From: a virus
Direction: 5' to 3' (one strand)
Length of the DNA stretch: 22,440 bases
Virus record (IMG/VR): IMGVR_UViG_3300034101_003119
Span: 1 to 22,440 of that record
Every line of letters begins with the position of its first letter. Position 1 is the first letter of the stretch. Shown piece after piece: positions 3,447 to 10,074 of this stretch. Made by a program: the position numbers and the translations under genes. The notes under the pieces are model-generated. The model searched no databases. It was not told the origin of the DNA and saw only the letters and a list, made by a program, of their open reading frames with translations.

Positions 3447-3458
3447 GGTTGTGAGATG

Positions 3459-3487
3459 AAGGTACGCCGGGCAGATTCTTTGCGCAA
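3459..3487 (-). promoter_or_regulatory. Possible leftward early promoter
   Basis: Minus-strand TTGCGC (3487-3482), a 17-base spacer and TACCTT (3464-3459). Only the first three bases of the -35 and the T, A and final T of the -10 fit the sigma-70 consensus, so the match is modest. The predicted start near 3452 would give a leader of about 40 bases that includes the strong Shine-Dalgarno at 3425-3419. The -35 lies inside the palindrome TTGCGCAA (3480-3487), a possible operator half-site arrangement. Confidence 0.45.
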
Positions 3488-3523
3488 GTCGTTTCGTAGC
3501 CTTTTTTTAGCACACTTTTACTA

Positions 3524-3552
3524 TTGACGTGCGGCGCCGACCTCTTTACGGT
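3524..3552 (+). promoter_or_regulatory. Rightward early promoter, probably leaderless
   Basis: TTGACG (3524-3529) matches five of six bases of the sigma-70 -35 box; after exactly 17 bases TACGGT (3547-3552) fits TANNNT. Only six bases separate the -10 from the ATG at 3559, so transcription should begin at or next to the start codon and give a leaderless message. No Shine-Dalgarno precedes that ATG. The spacer contains the palindrome CGGCGCCG (3532-3539), a plausible repressor site for the Cro-like protein encoded just downstream. The surrounding bases (3495-3530) are the most AT-rich of the region. Confidence 0.7.
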
Positions 3553-3558
3553 TGTCGC

Positions 3559-3765
3559 ATGCTGAACGAACAAATCGAGATTTGGTGCGCGGCGAACGGC
3601 AAGAACCGGGCTGCACTGGCCGAGGAGCTTGGGACGACAGCGAACGCCATCAGCAAATGGGCGTTCAGGCGCTCGGTCCCGCGCGTCGAGACTAACAAGC
3701 GCATTGCGGAACTGCTCGGGCTCGACCCGGTGAAGCTCCGTGAATGGTTCAAGTCTCGCCCGTAA
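3559..3765 (+). CDS. Cro/CI-type helix-turn-helix repressor
   Basis: 68 residues, a typical length for a Cro-like protein. It has the XRE helix-turn-helix: an N-terminal helix (NEQIEIWCAANGK), the scaffold helix NRAALAEELG, a turn TTANA, and the recognition helix ISKWAFRRSV (about residues 31-40), followed by two helices ending KLREWFKSRP. The ATG at 3559 is preferred to the in-frame upstream start at 3529, because the promoter -10 lies between them and the shorter protein starts directly at the helix-turn-helix domain. It should bind operators in the divergent control region 3412-3558 and set the balance between leftward and rightward transcription. No partner CI-type repressor gene is present in the window. 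Confidence 0.85.
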   Translation: MLNEQIEIWCAANGKNRAALAEELGTTANAISKWAFRRSVPRVETNKRIAELLGLDPVKLREWFKSRP

Positions 3766-3769
3766 GGCT

Positions 3770-3798
3770 CTGCCCGACCCGTCAGCAGCGACGGGCAG
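3770..3798 (+). repeat. GC-rich hairpin after the cro-like gene
   Basis: CCCGTC (3778-3783), loop AGCAGC, GACGGG (3790-3795) is a perfect six-pair stem. An alternative stem pairs CTGCCCG (3770-3776) with CGGGCAG (3792-3798). There is no following T run, so a classic intrinsic terminator is not supported; attenuation or an antiterminator site is possible. Confidence 0.4.
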
Positions 3799-3883
3799 GG
3801 GTCCGCGCCGACAATGCCGGGAATTCGCTCGGCGTCGGAGATATGGCGCGCACCGGCCGCGTGCGGGAAGCCGGGAACGTTTC

Positions 3884-3889
3884 TAGCGT
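3884..3889 (+). promoter_or_regulatory. Possible -10 element before the replication initiator
   Basis: TAGCGT lies nine bases before the GTG at 3899. The octamer TAGCGTGG (3884-3891) is identical to the one at the portal promoter (14146-14153). The sequence 17 bases upstream (GTGCGG) is a poor -35, so on its own this is weak. Confidence 0.3.
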
Positions 3890-3898
3890 GGGGTCATC

Positions 3899-4798
3899 GT
3901 GTCGTATTGGCTGAAGCTCTATCAGGACACCCACGCCGACGCCCGATTGCGCAAGGCCCGCGCTCGCGCAATCTGGCCTTGGATTCTCTGCCGCTTGAAG
4001 GACGGGGACGGGTTCGCGACCGACGCAGACCTCGACCCGTGGCGCGCATCGGACGACCATGACGAGGTGTTTTCCGAAGCCGAGGCCGCAGGGATGATTG
4101 AGCGGCTGAAGTCGGCCGGCCTGCTCGTGTCGACGGATTGCGGGTGGGCCTGCCCCGAGTGGGAGCGCCACGTCGGCGACCCTACGAACGCCGACCGGCA
4201 GAAGCGGTTCAGGGATAGGAAGCGAGCGCAGGATCAATCGAAGGAAACAGTAACGCCGAGTAACGGTTACGAACCGTTACTAACGTTACGTAACGGGAGT
4301 AACGGTAGAGCAGAGCAGAGCAGAGCAGAGAAGAAAGACGGTGATGAAGTGGAGGTTACGCGCGTGTGTGCGGTTGAAACACCGGCGCCGACCGTGGCCG
4401 AGGCCACCCAGGACGAAGTGCAGACGAAAATCCAGAATCACCCGGCGCACGACGCAATCCTCCCGATTGCCCGCGCCGCGTTCTCCATCCTCGGCGTCTG
4501 CCCAGAGGTCTACACCCTCGAATCCTGGCTCCAGGCCGGCTACTCGCTGGCGCGAATCGAATACGGGTTGCGGCAGGCCAAGCAATCCGCGGCTGGCCAA
4601 TGGATGCCCATGGGTAAGATTATCATCTCCGCGGGGCGATGGATGCAGCGGGCCGCCCCGGAAGAGTATCAGAAACGGCCCCAGCAGGCCGCAGGAGGCG
4701 CGAAAGCGGTGCAACCCATACCCACACCGCAGGAGCCGGCCAAGCAGTCCCTAACGGCCGAAGAGACGGCCGCGGCGTTTGCGGAGATTCTCGGATGA
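3899..4798 (+). CDS. Phage replication initiator / replisome organiser
   Basis: 299 residues with a GTG start (VSYWLKLYQDTH). The N-terminal 100 residues look like the winged-helix domain of phage initiator proteins: a WLKLY strand, helices around ARLRKARARAIWPWILCRL, FATDADL, then MIERLKSAGLLV leading to a wing. It ends in NADRQKRFRDRKR, a basic segment typical of phage O-like proteins. A low-complexity linker (about residues 115-155) follows, encoded by the iteron cluster. A C-terminal domain (about 175-265: HDAILPIARAAF to GKIIISAGRWMQ) probably recruits the helicase encoded immediately downstream, to which it is joined by an ATGA overlap. The arrangement (initiator with origin repeats inside its own gene, helicase next) matches lambda O-P style modules. 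Exact family is not identified. Confidence 0.75.
   Translation: MSYWLKLYQDTHADARLRKARARAIWPWILCRLKDGDGFATDADLDPWRASDDHDEVFSEAEAAGMIERLKSAGLLVSTDCGWACPEWERHVGDPTNADRQKRFRDRKRAQDQSKETVTPSNGYEPLLTLRNGSNGRAEQSRAEKKDGDEVEVTRVCAVETPAPTVAEATQDEVQTKIQNHPAHDAILPIARAAFSILGVCPEVYTLESWLQAGYSLARIEYGLRQAKQSAAGQWMPMGKIIISAGRWMQRAAPEEYQKRPQQAAGGAKAVQPIPTPQEPAKQSLTAEETAAAFAEILG
4249..4308. repeat. Iteron cluster, probable replication origin
   Basis: Six copies of the hexamer GTAACG lie within about 55 bases: on the plus strand at 4250, 4260, 4290 and 4299, and on the minus strand (as CGTTAC) at 4275-4280 and 4284-4289. Three sit in the longer context AGTAACG. A perfect inverted repeat joins GTAACGGTT (4260-4268) to AACCGTTAC (4272-4280) across three bases. 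Overlapping palindromes TAACGTTA (4281-4288) and GTTACGTAAC (4285-4294) follow. The cluster lies inside the linker of the initiator gene and is far less GC-rich than its surroundings. Known phage origins of the lambda type have this placement; origin function is inference. Confidence 0.68.
4307..4330 (+). repeat. Tandem AGAGC pentamer repeat beside the iterons
   Basis: Four full copies of AGAGC plus AGAG, starting directly at the end of the iteron cluster. The strand is purine-rich and could act as part of an unwinding or primer-loading region. In the protein it encodes the low-complexity string RAEQSRAEK. It could also be simple slippage, tolerated because it falls in a linker. Confidence 0.75.
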
Positions 4799-6141
4799 AA
4801 CTCAACAGGACTGAGCTAGCCGAGGTCTTGACCATCGCGTGCTGCCTTGTCGGCGGCACGGATGCCATGGACATTGCCTCGGACCATTGCAGCGCCGAGG
4901 ACTTCGTGAACTCGCGGGCGGCATCGGCATTCCGCGCGATGTCGCAGCTAGTGGCCCGCGGCGACCCCATCGATATCGTAACCGTGGCCACGACCATGGG
5001 CGGCGCAGCATGGAACCGCGAAACCGGGTCGGAGCGCATCGACTCTGACGCCCTTTCGTGGCTTGCGGAGCTTGAGGGCAACGCGCCGTTTGTGCGCGAC
5101 GTCGGCCACCATGCGAAGCGGGTCCGGACCGCCGCGCGCCTCCGTGGCATTGAAGAGGCATGCCGCGCCGGGCTCGCCGCCTGCCAGTCTGCCAGCGACG
5201 ACACCGACGCCGCGGCACAGGTCGCGGACGGCATCGTAGAGGGCCTGCTCGCGGTTGGCGACAAGGCGAGCGGAGCGACGTCCATTCGCATCTCGGGTGC
5301 CGTGAAACTCATGCTCGCCGACTTCAAGGCCCGGCAGACGACGCCGATTGAACGGCAGTACGTGCGGACCGGATTGAGCAAGCTCGACAACCTGGTCGAC
5401 GGCTACCGGCCGGGGCACCTGTACCTGGTCGGCGGCGCCCCGGGGCACGGCAAAACCGGCTTTCTCACCTTCGCCGCGGTGCAAGGCGCCATCGCCGGGG
5501 CCGCAGTGCTCTACGCCTCGGCCGAGGTGCCCGCGGAGGCCATCGCGCAGCGTGTCGTGTGCAACGTCGCCCGCGTGGACGGCCGGAAGTTGGAACGGCT
5601 CGACCTTGACCGCGACGAGACGACGCAGGTTGTCGGCAGTACGCATCGCATCGCCGAGTGGCCGCTCTCCATCCTCGACGCGCCTGCCTTGACCGTGGGC
5701 CTGCTTGACCGCGAGGTGCGCCGGCACGTCAAGCGCAACCCGGAGCGCATCGGCGTTCTGGTCGTGGACTACCTGCAGCTTGTCCGCGCCAGCGGGAAGC
5801 ACGGCAGCCGAGAGCAGGAGGTCGCCGAGGTCGCGGACGGCCTGCTCGAACTCTCAAAGCGGCACCGCATCGTGGTCATCGCCGGGGCGCAGCTCAATCG
5901 TGCGGGCGGGCAGCGGTCGGACAAACGCCCCGTCAGTGCCGACCTCCGCGAGTCGAGCCGCGGGGAGCACAATGCGTCCGTCGTGCTGATGCTGTACCGC
6001 CCGGGGATGAACGGCGAGGACGCCGCCGACCCGACGCACGCCGAAATCATCGTACGCAAGAACCGACTCGGGCCGCTCGGAACCGCGCTCTGCGTATTCG
6101 ACGCCGCCCGCAACACATGGAGGGACCGGGATGGATTCTGA
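4795..6141 (+). CDS. DnaB-like replicative helicase
   Basis: 448 residues, the usual size for a DnaB-type hexameric helicase that unwinds the fork 5' to 3'. The N-terminal helical domain (about 1-100) starts MKLNRTELAEVLTIACCLVG. The RecA-like C-terminal domain has Walker A GGAPGHGKT (213-221), a Walker B strand VLVVDYLQLV with D325, and the family pattern near its end, VRKNRLGPLGT, corresponding to the conserved K-R-G loop. The ATG at 4795 overlaps the initiator stop (ATGA), so the two are made together. A longer upstream frame exists but overlaps the initiator gene and is discarded. The N-terminal domain is short and diverged compared with E. coli DnaB, as is common in phages. Confident family assignment. 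Confidence 0.93.
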   Translation: MKLNRTELAEVLTIACCLVGGTDAMDIASDHCSAEDFVNSRAASAFRAMSQLVARGDPIDIVTVATTMGGAAWNRETGSERIDSDALSWLAELEGNAPFVRDVGHHAKRVRTAARLRGIEEACRAGLAACQSASDDTDAAAQVADGIVEGLLAVGDKASGATSIRISGAVKLMLADFKARQTTPIERQYVRTGLSKLDNLVDGYRPGHLYLVGGAPGHGKTGFLTFAAVQGAIAGAAVLYASAEVPAEAIAQRVVCNVARVDGRKLERLDLDRDETTQVVGSTHRIAEWPLSILDAPALTVGLLDREVRRHVKRNPERIGVLVVDYLQLVRASGKHGSREQEVAEVADGLLELSKRHRIVVIAGAQLNRAGGQRSDKRPVSADLRESSRGEHNASVVLMLYRPGMNGEDAADPTHAEIIVRKNRLGPLGTALCVFDAARNTWRDRDGF

Positions 6142-6343: not shown

Positions 6344-6630
6344 GCGAAATCACGATGAAGGCGCTTCAGCCGATTCAAGCCGGCCATCCGGTAATGCTCG
6401 GCGTCGACGTGGAGCACATCCCGGCCCGCGACCCGCTGCACATCCCCGGCATGCTCAAGGCCGCGGCGTCCGACCTTGAGTCCGCGCCGCCGAGCGTGGA
6501 GCGCGCCCTTGCGTTGCTTCGGCTGGCGCAGGAGGTCCGCCTGTACCGTGCGAGCCTTGAGCAGCCCGCGCCGAAGCCTGCGCCCAAGCCCGCAACCCGC
6601 CGCGCCTCTCGCGGCCTGCACGTTGATTGA
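6340..6630 (+). CDS. Hypothetical protein with proline/lysine-rich tail
   Basis: 96 residues, ATG at 6340 overlapping the previous stop (ATGA) and preceded by a G-rich ribosome-binding stretch. The N-terminal part is mixed (MKALQPIQAGHPVMLGVDVEHIPARDP), the middle helical (VERALALLRLAQEVRLYRASLE), and the C-terminus is a repetitive KPAPKPA basic tail ending ASRGLHVD. No known domain. The basic tail could contact nucleic acid. Confidence 0.62.
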   Translation: MSEITMKALQPIQAGHPVMLGVDVEHIPARDPLHIPGMLKAAASDLESAPPSVERALALLRLAQEVRLYRASLEQPAPKPAPKPATRRASRGLHVD

Positions 6631-6638
6631 GCGCCCAC

Positions 6639-7058
6639 ATGACCACCATCGCCACCATCGTCGAGCACGCGCGCCTTTCCGACCTTGAGCGCGCAATCTG
6701 CCGCGCCATCGCCAAAGACGGCAGCATCGGCGGAACTGCGCGCGAACTCGCCGAGACGTTCGGCGTGAATCGGTCGTCCCTCTTCCGCGCGCTCTCCAGC
6801 CTGGAGCGGCGCGAGGTCATCCTTCGCTCGTCGAAGCGCGGCAAGTCCGGGTCGATTCTCGTAACTTTCAACGGTCGCGCGGGTGACAAACTGCGGGCGT
6901 TGTGCGACCATTTGAGCGGTAAGAGTGACGCGGCCGGCACGGAATACACGGCGATTCCGGTAGGCCAGGAAGAGGCCGTGCGCGAGGACCGTGCACGGTT
7001 GCTAAACGCAAAGAAGGCCCGGGTTGCGGCGATGCTGCAGCGCGTCGGGCAGGGGTGA
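6639..7058 (+). CDS. Winged-helix DNA-binding protein
   Basis: 139 residues. Residues about 18-75 form a winged helix-turn-helix of the MarR/replication-regulator kind: LSDLERAICRAIAKDG, TARELAETFGVNRSSLFRALSSLERREVILRSSKRGKSGSI, where the recognition helix is SSLFRALSSLER and the wing is SSKRGKSGSILV. The rest is helical and charged, ending KKARVAAMLQRVG. I use ATG 6639; a TTG at 6627 overlaps the upstream stop and is an alternative four codons longer. It could regulate the replication block or help at the origin. Function beyond DNA binding is not known. Confidence 0.72.
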   Translation: MTTIATIVEHARLSDLERAICRAIAKDGSIGGTARELAETFGVNRSSLFRALSSLERREVILRSSKRGKSGSILVTFNGRAGDKLRALCDHLSGKSDAAGTEYTAIPVGQEEAVREDRARLLNAKKARVAAMLQRVGQG

Positions 7059-7061
7059 TAC

Positions 7062-7244
7062 ATGGCACGTCCCGAAGTGGACAAGGCGATAGAGTTCGTC
7101 GAATCGGCCCTCGTGGTCGTATTTGCATACGGCGATGCGTTCGTCGCACAGTCTTTCGACCCCGACATCGCAAGTCAGGGCGCGACCGTGCAGGAGGCGT
7201 TGCGCAATCTCGCCGAGGCGCTCGACCTCGCGGCGGAGGGGTAA
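7062..7244 (+). CDS. HicB-like orphan protein
   Basis: 60 residues. The sequence follows the HicB antitoxin fold: a strand pair (LVVVFAYGDAFVAQSFDPDI), then the signature A-SQGATVQEALRNLAEALDLAAEG, which matches the HicB pattern of a small residue-rich loop followed by an EAL-NL-EAL helix. HicB normally neutralises the HicA mRNA interferase; no HicA-like gene lies beside it and there is no C-terminal DNA-binding domain. It may be a lone anti-HicA decoy or a domesticated fold with another role. ATG at 7062 follows the previous stop by three bases. Confidence 0.7.
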   Translation: MARPEVDKAIEFVESALVVVFAYGDAFVAQSFDPDIASQGATVQEALRNLAEALDLAAEG

Positions 7245-7247
7245 GAC

Positions 7248-8168
7248 ATGCAACTGAGAGTCGTGGGCGGCGACGCCCTGATGATTCCATTCATCGCCGC
7301 GTGCAAAGAGTCGAATCTCGCCATATCCGCGGCGATTCGGCTCGCCGTCGAGTGGCACGCGAAACGGTCGGGCCGCCCGATGCCGGGACTCATCGAGGCG
7401 CACCGCTCGTGGAGCGCGAAGGCCGGCGAGAACGTGGCCAAAGGCGGAGTGCTGGTCTACGTTCCTGCCGAGTGGGCCGTCGCGCTCAGTTCCGGCAAGA
7501 CCAGAATCGCCGAACAGTGCCGCGTCGCGATGCGCGCATGGCTCGCTGCGGGCTGCCCGCTCGACCTGGTGCAGCGGACATCCGCTCAACTCCGCGCTCG
7601 AGCGGCGAAGCTGGACAAGGACGAGACTGACAGCCGTTCGCAGGTCACAATCAAACTCGCCGGACTGCGGCACATGGTCAGCGGGCTCTCCGTCTCTCGC
7701 GGCGTGCCCATGGCCGTTGTCGTCCGCGAGATGATGGCGGCCGAATACCTGCGGCAGACTGGAAAGCCGCTGCCGACCATCTGCGGCGCGACCCGGGCTC
7801 CGGTCAACCGCGGCGGGCCGGCAGATGGCACCATTGGAATCTCGATGCCGGTCTCGTGGCTGATCGCCATCGACGAGATTTCAAGGCATGACCGCCAAGA
7901 GTGGATTCGCGGCGCCGTGCGTGCTCACTTCGGCGTGGACAACCCGGAGCCGAGCCGAAGCGAGGCCGCGGAGGCTGCATTCAGGGCGCGGCAGGAGAAG
8001 GCGCGCGCCGTGGTACTCTCTCGCTCTGCCGCGCCATCTGAGGCCATGCGGGCGCAGGCAAAGGACAATTCGAGATGGCCAGCCGGTCGCGGCGTGTTCA
8101 CGGGCAGCATCACCGGCCGGCAGTATGTCGGGCCGGTCAACGTGGAGCGGATGGAGGTGGCGGCGTGA
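7248..8168 (+). CDS. Protein with four ribbon-helix-helix-like units
   Basis: 306 residues, no known full-length family recognised. Four stretches share the strand-helix-turn-helix pattern of the ribbon-helix-helix fold: about 2-42, 67-102, 132-172 and 194-228. Units 1 and 3 both end in the same tail (KRSGRPMPGL and RQTGKPLPTI), and units 2 and 4 share P-x-x-W-x-x-A at the start of the first helix (VPAEWAVAL and MPVSWLIAI). The protein therefore looks like a duplication of a two-unit block with a period of about 130 residues. Ribbon-helix-helix proteins bind operators as dimers, so one chain could fold as two built-in dimers. The last 75 residues are helical and then basic. A DNA-binding regulator or architectural protein is likely; the target is unknown. 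Confidence 0.72.
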   Translation: MQLRVVGGDALMIPFIAACKESNLAISAAIRLAVEWHAKRSGRPMPGLIEAHRSWSAKAGENVAKGGVLVYVPAEWAVALSSGKTRIAEQCRVAMRAWLAAGCPLDLVQRTSAQLRARAAKLDKDETDSRSQVTIKLAGLRHMVSGLSVSRGVPMAVVVREMMAAEYLRQTGKPLPTICGATRAPVNRGGPADGTIGISMPVSWLIAIDEISRHDRQEWIRGAVRAHFGVDNPEPSRSEAAEAAFRARQEKARAVVLSRSAAPSEAMRAQAKDNSRWPAGRGVFTGSITGRQYVGPVNVERMEVAA

Positions 8169-8380
8169 GGCTCGCAGACGCGAAACCCGGAGACTTCTTG
8201 CAGGACGTCGACGGCGCGGTGTGGCTGTGCGGCAAGGATGCTGCGGTGTGCCTCCACGACCCGGCCGACAAGCGCACTGGCGACCATGCCAGCTTTGCCG
8301 CCGACCCGATGGTCATCGAAGAGGCCGAGAGGTTCGGCCCATTCGCCCGCCTCGTCCCCGAGGAGGAGGTGCAGTGGTGA
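8165..8380 (+). CDS. Small phage protein, PGD/GPF-type
   Basis: 71 residues, GTG start overlapping the previous stop (GTGA). The pattern KPGDFLQDVDGAVWLCGKDAAVCL, then EAERFGPFARLVPEEE, resembles a class of small hypothetical proteins common in phages of GC-rich bacteria, for which no function is known to me. It is beta-rich. The alternative frame starting at 8075 overlaps the previous gene and is not used. Confidence 0.65.
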   Translation: MRLADAKPGDFLQDVDGAVWLCGKDAAVCLHDPADKRTGDHASFAADPMVIEEAERFGPFARLVPEEEVQW

Positions 8381-8862
8381 AGCGATGCCCAGGAACGAAG
8401 GTCGACGGCGAATGGACGGGCTTTATCTGCGTGCTCGACGCGGGTCATCCCGAGCGCTTCTGCCGGCCGTACATCCCGCCCGACGCGGACGAGTGGCGGG
8501 CGCTCAAGGCGCGGGCGATGGAGTTGGAAGTCCGATTGGGGGATTGGTCGATTCGGGCGCAGAGCGCCGAGATTGAACTCGCCGCCGCGCTCGACCGTGA
8601 AAAGCACACCGACGCGACGTGCGCCCGCCTGCAAGCCGAGCTCGACGCCCTGCGCGCCGTGGTCGAGTCGGGCGCGTTGTCCGCAATCCAGGCCGCGGAC
8701 ATGCTCGCCAAGGTCAGAGATAACGCCTACGCATGGCCCTACGGCGTCGCGTGGGCCTGCAAAGAGGCGCACCGGCTGCTCACGGGCGGGCCGCCCGATG
8801 GGGTCTACGTGAAGGTGCAGCGTGACGACCTCGCGGGGTTGGCGCGCAAGGGGGACGCATGA
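8377..8862 (+). CDS. Protein with Cys/His knuckle and coiled coil
   Basis: 161 residues, GTG start at 8377 overlapping the previous stop; AGGAGGAGG at 8361-8369 gives a strong ribosome-binding site. The N-terminus carries a potential zinc site C4-x13-C18-x5-H24-x4-C29 (FICVLDAGHPERFC). Residues about 45-115 are a charged helical region likely to form a coiled coil (EWRALKARAMELEVRLGDW to ARLQAELDALRAVVE), and the end is mixed. The same knuckle appears in the gene at 9413. A protein- or nucleic-acid-binding accessory role is plausible; no named family. Confidence 0.65.
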   Translation: MKRCPGTKVDGEWTGFICVLDAGHPERFCRPYIPPDADEWRALKARAMELEVRLGDWSIRAQSAEIELAAALDREKHTDATCARLQAELDALRAVVESGALSAIQAADMLAKVRDNAYAWPYGVAWACKEAHRLLTGGPPDGVYVKVQRDDLAGLARKGDA

Positions 8863-9416
8863 CCGGCCTCGCCGCAGACGTCGCAGCCGCGTCCCGCTCG
8901 CACGCCGGACGCACCGCCCGCGCGACCGGCGAGGCATTCGAGCTCGCGCTTGACCGCTATCACCGCACGCTCGAAACCCAGGGCCGTGCCTACGTTCGCC
9001 GCGTCGGTGCGCCGATTGCGGTGCTCGGCAAGGTGTCGCGAGATGCCCGCGGCCGGCACATCTTCCGGGCGGCGTGGGACGGATTCCAGGGCGTCGACTT
9101 CACCGGGCACACCCAAACCGGGGTTCACATCGCCATCGAGGCTAAGACGCACGCAGGGCTCGGCGCGTGGGACTGCGGCATCGACCCGACCGGAGATGCG
9201 AGCGAGAACGGCGCGATTCAAGCCCGGCAGTGGGTCGAGCTTCGCCGCGTGGAACTCTGCGGCGGGATCGCGTTCATCATACTGCGCGCGTGGGGCCGAG
9301 AGTGGGCAATCCCGCCGCACATGCTGGCCCTGCACGTATCGACGAAGGGCCGGCGCACTGTGCGGCCGGACGAGATTGACGCGATTGGATTTCGCGGATT
9401 GGAGTGGATGCGATGA
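8859..9416 (+). CDS. RecU-like Holliday junction resolvase
   Basis: 185 residues, typical for RecU-type resolvases of phages and Firmicutes. It should cut four-way DNA junctions formed in replication and recombination. The PD-(D/E)XK nuclease core is visible: G24-E25-x2-E28 in the first helix, D80 (GVDFTG), E94-A95-K96 (IAIEAKTHAG), then Q-x2-Q-W-V-E-L and the GGIAFIIL strand that is characteristic of RecU. The ATG at 8859 overlaps the previous stop (ATGA). It lies between small accessory genes in the replication block, where phages commonly place their resolvase to clear branches before packaging. The assignment is good; a general Holliday-junction-resolvase-like nuclease is the only serious alternative. 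Confidence 0.8.
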   Translation: MTGLAADVAAASRSHAGRTARATGEAFELALDRYHRTLETQGRAYVRRVGAPIAVLGKVSRDARGRHIFRAAWDGFQGVDFTGHTQTGVHIAIEAKTHAGLGAWDCGIDPTGDASENGAIQARQWVELRRVELCGGIAFIILRAWGREWAIPPHMLALHVSTKGRRTVRPDEIDAIGFRGLEWMR

Positions 9417-9616: not shown

Positions 9617-10074
9617 ACGCAGAACGCCTGAACATCGCGTGCCGGCTGGTCGCGTGTCCGAAGTGGATGTGGTTGCCGGGGATGCAGATGGTCGTCCACG
9701 GGTGCATGGAGTGCCGGCCATTGTGTGCGTTGGCCGGATCCGTGAACCGCATCGTCAGCAGCGACGGTGGATTCCGAAGCCACAAGGCCGGCCACGTTTC
9801 CGGCCCGGCCCTTGACGGCGGGATGCACGACAACGTCCCCGACCTCGACGACGACTTGACGCGCCTCGGCGTGCTCGCGGTCGTGCGGCTGGCATGGGGC
9901 GATGACCGCATGGTGACGAGCGTTCACGGTGACATCGGCGACCGGCCATCGCAATGCCACTGGATGGTGACGACGTTTGACGGCCGCTGCGGCGCGGACG
10001 ATGAATGGTGGAGCGGTATTCATGCGACCGAGTTGGACGCATTACTAGCCGCCCTGGAAGCCGCACCCCAATGA
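9613..10074 (+). CDS. Hypothetical phage protein
   Basis: 153 residues, ATG at 9613 overlapping the previous stop (ATGA), with a near-perfect Shine-Dalgarno GGAGGTGA at 9601-9608. Features include a tryptophan-rich start (WMWLPGMQM), a CxxC-like HGCMECRPLC segment, PDLDDDLTRLGVLAVVRLAWGDD, and a C-terminal helix ELDALLAALEAA. The WLPGM and PDL-TLG-LA-LVR pattern recurs in uncharacterised phage proteins as I recall them. No biochemical role is known. Confidence 0.65.
   Translation: MNAERLNIACRLVACPKWMWLPGMQMVVHGCMECRPLCALAGSVNRIVSSDGGFRSHKAGHVSGPALDGGMHDNVPDLDDDLTRLGVLAVVRLAWGDDRMVTSVHGDIGDRPSQCHWMVTTFDGRCGADDEWWSGIHATELDALLAALEAAPQ

Follow-up and report, generated by a model that had tools for sequence, protein, structure and literature searches.

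The protein encoded by the 306-amino-acid (aa) ORF of the window (the whole 22,440-base IMG/VR virus record analyzed here) contains four ribbon-helix-helix (RHH)-like units arranged as A1-B1-A2-B2 and ends in a conserved C-terminal tail. We consider it probable that this is a phage DNA-binding protein in which duplication of an A-B pair produced two covalent RHH dimers, A1-B1 and A2-B2, and which, together with its tail, serves as a site-specific regulator or organizer of a replication/recombination module.

According to family scans, the gene content of the window is that of a tailed phage. The plus strand encodes, in this order, a replication-initiator-like protein, DnaB, a winged-helix protein, the 306-aa protein, a RecU-like resolvase, a helicase, terminase, portal, protease, and capsid, and the minus strand carries an exonuclease VIII-like gene and companion genes. 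None of 50,697 phage records matched the TerL or the RecU-like protein of the window, and its DnaB showed no more than about 32% identity to the best phage records among the matches listed. Therefore, the window represents an uncultured lineage. A GGAGG-like ribosome site is located immediately 5′ of the 306-aa ORF. The HicB-like ORF preceding it was confined to L001-type relatives and had no NCBIfam match, and family scans recognized no HicA-like toxin gene among its scanned neighbors. Its identification as a HicB antitoxin was not supported: it is a separate gene with a DUF7387 match below the cut-off and no HicA recognized among the scanned neighbors. The 71-aa small protein encoded at the 3′ side of the RHH gene had no family match in Pfam and NCBIfam scans.

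Table 1 Positions of the 306-aa protein gene, its units, and the neighboring genes in the window.
Feature	Position	Strand	Evidence or remark
DnaB-like replicative helicase	4639..6141	+	Pfam DnaB_C, E = 2.8e-57; conserved left border of the variable cassette
Winged-helix DNA-binding protein, 5′ of the RHH gene	6627..7058	+	GntR-type HTH, Pfam E = 2.5e-6
60-aa HicB-like/DUF7387 ORF, stops 3 nt before the RHH gene	7062..7244	+	Pfam PF24113, E = 8e-5, under the curated cut-off; member of the variable cassette
306-aa protein, four RHH-like units A1-B1-A2-B2 and conserved C-terminal tail	7248..8168	+	ATG start
Unit A1, residues 1–48, ending SGRPMPGL	7248..7391	+	Strand-helix-helix by pattern; fold inferred from A2
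Unit B1, residues 67–105, PAEWAVA motif	7446..7562	+	B1-B2 repeat test; fold inferred from B2
Unit A2, residues 131–178	7638..7781	+	AlphaFold2: E3–9, H11–24, H28–44 of the 128–236 fragment
Unit B2, residues 194–232	7827..7943	+	AlphaFold2: E68–74, H75–85, H89–101 of the 128–236 fragment
Conserved C-terminal tail, residues 264–306	8037..8165	+	Alignments; common to the otherwise different L007/L008 proteins
71-aa conserved small protein	8165..8380	+	50% identity to L006:7517-7723
RecU/Holliday-junction-resolvase-like protein	8859..9416	+	phrog_843, E = 5e-12; conserved right border

The preliminary description of this ORF had read it as an A-B-A′-B′ duplication, on the grounds that units 1 and 3 share their endings and units 2 and 4 share P-x-x-W-x-x-A. 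All of these motifs were found as quoted (SGRPMPGL at residues 41–48, TGKPLPTI at 171–178, PAEWAVA at 73–79, and PVSWLIA at 201–207), and the unit boundaries given were about right. When the units were aligned locally in pairs and compared with shuffled sequences, A1 resembled A2 (p = 0.01) and B1 resembled B2 (p = 0.007), while A1 or A2 against B1 or B2 stayed at chance level (p = 0.41–0.68). For a second repeat test, orthologous units were stacked into family blocks whose columns were shuffled 500 times. A1-A2 reached z = 5.9 (p = 0.002; no shuffle scored as high) and B1-B2 reached z = 3.8 (p = 0.01), and the A-B comparisons gave z values from −1.2 to 2.1, with no clear mutual similarity of A and B. 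Since both tests place A1-A2 and B1-B2, and not the A-B comparisons, above the shuffles, the A-B-A′-B′ reading is correct. The tail (about residues 264–306), which was absent from the anatomy given in that description, proved to be more strongly conserved than any other part of the family.

An AlphaFold2 model of the full-length protein from its single sequence was unusable (pLDDT 35). We used residues 128–236 as AlphaFold2 input with a seven-row family alignment (five distinct rows, both A1-B1 halves included) and without templates. From this shallow alignment, the A2-B2 model was obtained with a pLDDT of 80.9, a pTM of 0.75, and the order E-H-H-E-H-H, and the pLDDT of all five models was 78.5–80.9. 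The model contains exactly two strands, both assigned by DSSP, so each must have the other as its pairing partner, in the manner of an RHH dimer ribbon. Of the hallmark of the RHH fold, two units that pair their strands into a two-stranded antiparallel ribbon, the pairing of the strands is thus predicted for A2-B2. A2-B2 is confidently predicted, albeit from a shallow alignment, to be an RHH dimer-like domain within one chain, and A1-B1, through its homology to A2-B2, presumably has the same fold. The single-chain nature of the RHH dimers accordingly comes from the prediction for A2-B2 and by way of the repeat tests for A1-B1.

A Foldseek search of the PDB (350,542 chains) with the A2-B2 model placed F TraY chains and AvtR at ranks 1–5, with E values of 0.44–0.6 and TM scores of 0.41–0.49 that are individually not significant; the top RHH ranks spanned E values of 0.44–0.87. 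The F-plasmid relaxosome chains at the top fit TraY in length. In the viral library, the best match was K9MCE0 (106 aa; E = 3.7e-3, probability 1.00, TM 0.61), which fits the 106-aa tandem-RHH proteins of STSV2 in length and accession series. As for the two built-in dimers proposed previously, the second is backed by AlphaFold2, with TraY and AvtR as individually weak fold matches, and the first is suggested by homology.

Searches of Pfam, PHROGs, NCBIfam, and PDB sequences gave no significant match. The RHH families RHH_1, RHH_3, Arc, MetJ, CopG, and others had no Pfam match to the whole proteins or to the units. Profile comparison with Pfam, NCBIfam, and PHROGs did not bear out the MetJ/Arc-type kinship considered earlier. 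RHH families are often too diverged to match each other's profiles, and a sequence match is not strictly defining. The sole RHH protein to surface in the sequence searches was ORF56. It was the top PDB sequence match of the family profile (2k9i; E = 0.03–0.07, not significant) with P-x-E-W in register, its family was weakly matched by unit A1 alone in NCBIfam, and unit B2 had a weak PDB profile match to it. An hhalign comparison with the STSV tandem RHH proteins matched A to their first unit and B to their second (P = 0.011, probability 4%; 0.17 for an unrelated control). An RHH profile built from the STSV units scored 1.1 bits on P0001, barely exceeding the 95% point of the shuffles (0.0) and staying under their maximum (2.7). 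With the hhalign probability of 4% and the STSV profile score within the shuffle range, no homology to the PHA02938 members was found. Unit B2 was also matched by phrog_35490 (E = 0.007), a short family of unknown kind. Pfam matches to Birnavirus VP5 and GcrA were below the cut-off and were rejected.

By searching with the neighbor genes and the family, we retrieved relatives on the contigs L006, L007, L008, and L019. Near-identical copies (98–99%) are present in two other contigs. L006 encodes a complete 335-aa relative (7720-8727; 31% identity) with all four units and the tail, L019, which is truncated at its 5′ end, carries a fragment (about 38–46% identity), and L007 and L008 encode two 159-aa relatives bearing the same tail. 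By eye, the L007/L008 proteins have at most one strand-helix-helix-like stretch, which the A and B profiles do not recognize. No relative was found in known phages, plasmids, and 84,980 bacterial and archaeal genomes; therefore, the family is known solely from the window and about six other uncultured-virus contigs. The four-unit layout is conserved in two diverged phages, the window and L006. Between these two, A1 against A1 scored 77 and A1 against A2 scored 34–37. As the A1 units of the two proteins resemble each other more than they resemble A2, the duplication is older than the split between the window and L006.

Several other differences were observed between the window and L006. A run of VATP repeats lies between B2 and the tail in L006 (8520-8620) and is absent from the window protein. 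In the window, the small protein of about 70 aa is encoded 3′ of the RHH gene, and in L006 it is encoded on the 5′ side, which is a local change of gene order around the cassette. Two stretches of the window (8625-8673 and 9837-9897) were >90% identical to one contiguous L006 gene (1304-1412, minus strand; ELDALRAVVESGPDLDDDLTR-GVLAVVR). They lie in two separate window genes 1.2 kb apart, while the genomes are elsewhere about 70% identical or less, which suggests that the gene has been split or is a mosaic.

The tail (the last about 40 residues), with the pattern S-R-W-P-x-G-R-x4-G-x-I-T-G-x-Q-Y-V-x2-V, contains the majority of the family's invariant positions and is a candidate hairpin for docking or DNA binding. 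When the window and L019 are compared, its codons differ at 16 third positions, eight first positions, and eight second positions. Since the third positions vary twice as often, conservation in this pair is at the level of the protein and not of the DNA. As a DNA pattern, the tail motif occurred in 46 stretches of all viral contigs, and the preceding SRWP was present in the family alone. The other stretches (e.g., in L112, L113, and L123), which lack SRWP, appear to be chance occurrences or different motifs.

L006 and L007 share 85–87% DNA identity on either side of a stretch that runs from the DnaB stop to a point inside the tail; within this stretch, no similarity is detectable. Their DnaB proteins are 94.6% and their resolvases 87% identical, yet the protein encoded between them has four units in L006 and is short in L007. 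Likewise, detectable DNA similarity between the window and L019 starts at 8076, inside the tail, and their resolvases are 89% identical. Among the relatives, the RHH protein shows 31–40% identity, compared with 52–89% for the resolvase and 64% for DnaB. With the flanks conserved, the front of the gene replaced, and the tail kept, the front, together with the HicB-like ORF in the window, looks like an exchangeable cassette. From these alignments, the RHH part looks as if it had been swapped wholesale between DnaB and the RecU-like resolvase while the fixed tail was kept. One could go further and suppose a modular system in which a constant tail is combined with exchangeable DNA-recognition fronts (four- or one-unit RHH-like) that are swapped by recombination and address a fixed replication/recombination partner to different DNA sites in each phage; we regard this extension as rather doubtful.

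In the explanation that we favor, the A-B pair would have been duplicated to give two covalently built-in RHH dimers, each of which would insert its two-stranded ribbon into the DNA major groove, so that a single chain could grip two adjacent DNA sites. If TraY and AvtR are a guide, the likely function of the protein is to bind DNA site-specifically through its two linked RHH dimers. The tail would dock on a constant phage partner, which its presence suggests, or supply a fixed contact. The assignment to a replication/recombination module is made because the gene sits between DnaB and the RecU-like resolvase, and the protein may be a site-specific regulator or organizer of this DnaB-RecU module in which the recognition part is swapped and the tail is retained. 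Against this explanation are the PDB fold E values of 0.4 or worse, the absence of a significant sequence match, the STSV-derived profile score near shuffle level, and the L007/L008 proteins, whose single RHH-like unit at most implies that the role of the tail does not require four units. A further point against it is the failure to find an operator. The preliminary description had envisaged that the chain could hold two operator sites at a fixed distance; paired operator-like repeats were found neither near the gene nor in the divergent intergenic region 3450-3950 nor in L006, where the repeats were short and unremarkable. A simple sigma-70 scan, which is weak for GC-rich phages, found no promoter-like sequence near the gene.

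The same architecture might instead serve mainly as a transcription repressor or activator of an early operon, similar to an AvtR-like autoregulator, with the adjacency to DnaB incidental, replication uninvolved, and the tail stabilizing the protein or adding a DNA contact. We regard this as a tenable possibility with a less than even chance. The RHH proteins AvtR and SvtR of archaeal viruses act on transcription (PMC5569661), a winged-helix protein and the HicB-like ORF are encoded immediately upstream, and the fast divergence of the RHH protein relative to the resolvase and DnaB fits shifting operator specificity. The lack of promoter- or operator-like repeats near the gene speaks against it, as does the fact that the tail, and not the DNA-binding units, is best conserved.

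Protein-protein pairing rather than DNA binding, as in an antitoxin or a scaffold, would make the RHH protein, for instance, a partner of the upstream 60-aa HicB-like protein. HicB antitoxins often have an N-terminal HicB domain joined to an RHH domain, and here a HicB-like ORF adjoins an RHH gene, both within the variable cassette. Nevertheless, no HicA-like toxin was present among the scanned neighbors, the DUF7387 match was below the cut-off with nothing in NCBIfam, and L006 has the four-unit protein without the HicB-like ORF; we consider such a role quite improbable. The lack of a significant match to RHH families and the PDB Foldseek E values above 0.4 would also be expected if the protein were a single globular, mostly helical fold and the RHH reading an artifact of pattern reading and of a bias of AlphaFold2 toward common folds on a shallow alignment. 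This, too, is improbable in view of the pLDDT of all five template-free models, of the E-H-H-E-H-H order with exactly two strands, and of the top fold matches among PDB chains and viral models, which are tandem RHH proteins. In addition, the weak matches of A1 (NCBIfam) and B (PDB) both point to ORF56, an RHH protein.

RHH proteins are textbook DNA binders that act as dimers of short chains. Two fused dimers in one tailed-phage chain allow the effects of fusion and duplication on operator choice to be asked, since the A and B halves, and the first and second dimers, are free to diverge separately. Exchange of the RHH part on a constant tail, if true, would be a natural domain swap indicating a yet-to-be-found partner in the replication module. 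This significance is tempered by the single-chain RHH dimers and the multi-RHH chains of archaeal viruses that are already known.

TraY of the F plasmid is a single-chain RHH dimer whose monomer binds DNA, and three copies align on DNA beside a relaxase/helicase (PMC12117103). Like A2-B2 as predicted, TraY (PDB 9f0x/9f0y/9f0z), the top PDB fold match, has two beta-alpha-alpha units in one chain that form a full RHH dimer. Unlike the 306-aa protein, it has 131 aa and one built-in dimer, belongs to a conjugation relaxosome, and had no sequence match. AvtR of Acidianus filamentous virus 6, another tandem RHH protein made of one chain, also binds DNA in monomeric form, and spreading along the DNA has been proposed for it (PMC5569661). 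AvtR (PDB 4hv0) shares with the 306-aa protein a viral tandem RHH chain and was among the top fold matches, whereas it has one built-in dimer and a mass of 11.9 kDa, comes from an archaeal virus, and had no sequence match. TraY is not known to have an SRWPxGR..GxITGxQYV tail, and AvtR is not known to have a conserved tail. The family of the 306-aa protein resembles ORF56 (PDB 2k9i, 3ft7), an RHH plasmid copy-control protein, in having a strand followed by P-x-E-W; ORF56 is a 55-residue chain with one unit and forms a homodimer.

The best structural matches were the PHA02938 proteins (STSV2_17 to _23 and STSV1 ORFs 20–24), which, like the 306-aa protein, have several tandem RHH units per chain. 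They differ from it in their strong Pfam RHH_1 matches, other spacers, and another kind of virus and host. The 106-aa STSV2 proteins have two Pfam RHH_1 stretches. Five units were detected by iterated profile, and a sixth by eye, in STSV2_18, STSV2_19, and STSV1 ORFs 21 and 22 (353–361 aa), and three units, with a fourth by eye, in STSV1 ORF23 (270 aa). STSV2_18 (L156:16389-17450) and STSV1 ORF21 (L157:21128-22213), with five to six RHH units each, lie in a side-by-side run of paralogues. These multi-RHH proteins are deposited as hypothetical proteins, and no paper describing four-unit RHH chains was found among open-licence papers. The architecture had been called unusual in the preliminary description; this holds in part as regards rarity, but is too strong given the single-chain dimers of TraY and AvtR and the chains of more than two units in STSV1 and STSV2. 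Built-in RHH dimers (TraY and AvtR) and three to five detected units per chain (STSV1 and STSV2) are already known, and what is new is a chain in a tailed phage that most likely has two RHH dimers, unrelated in sequence to TraY, AvtR, and the STSV proteins, together with the cassette pattern.
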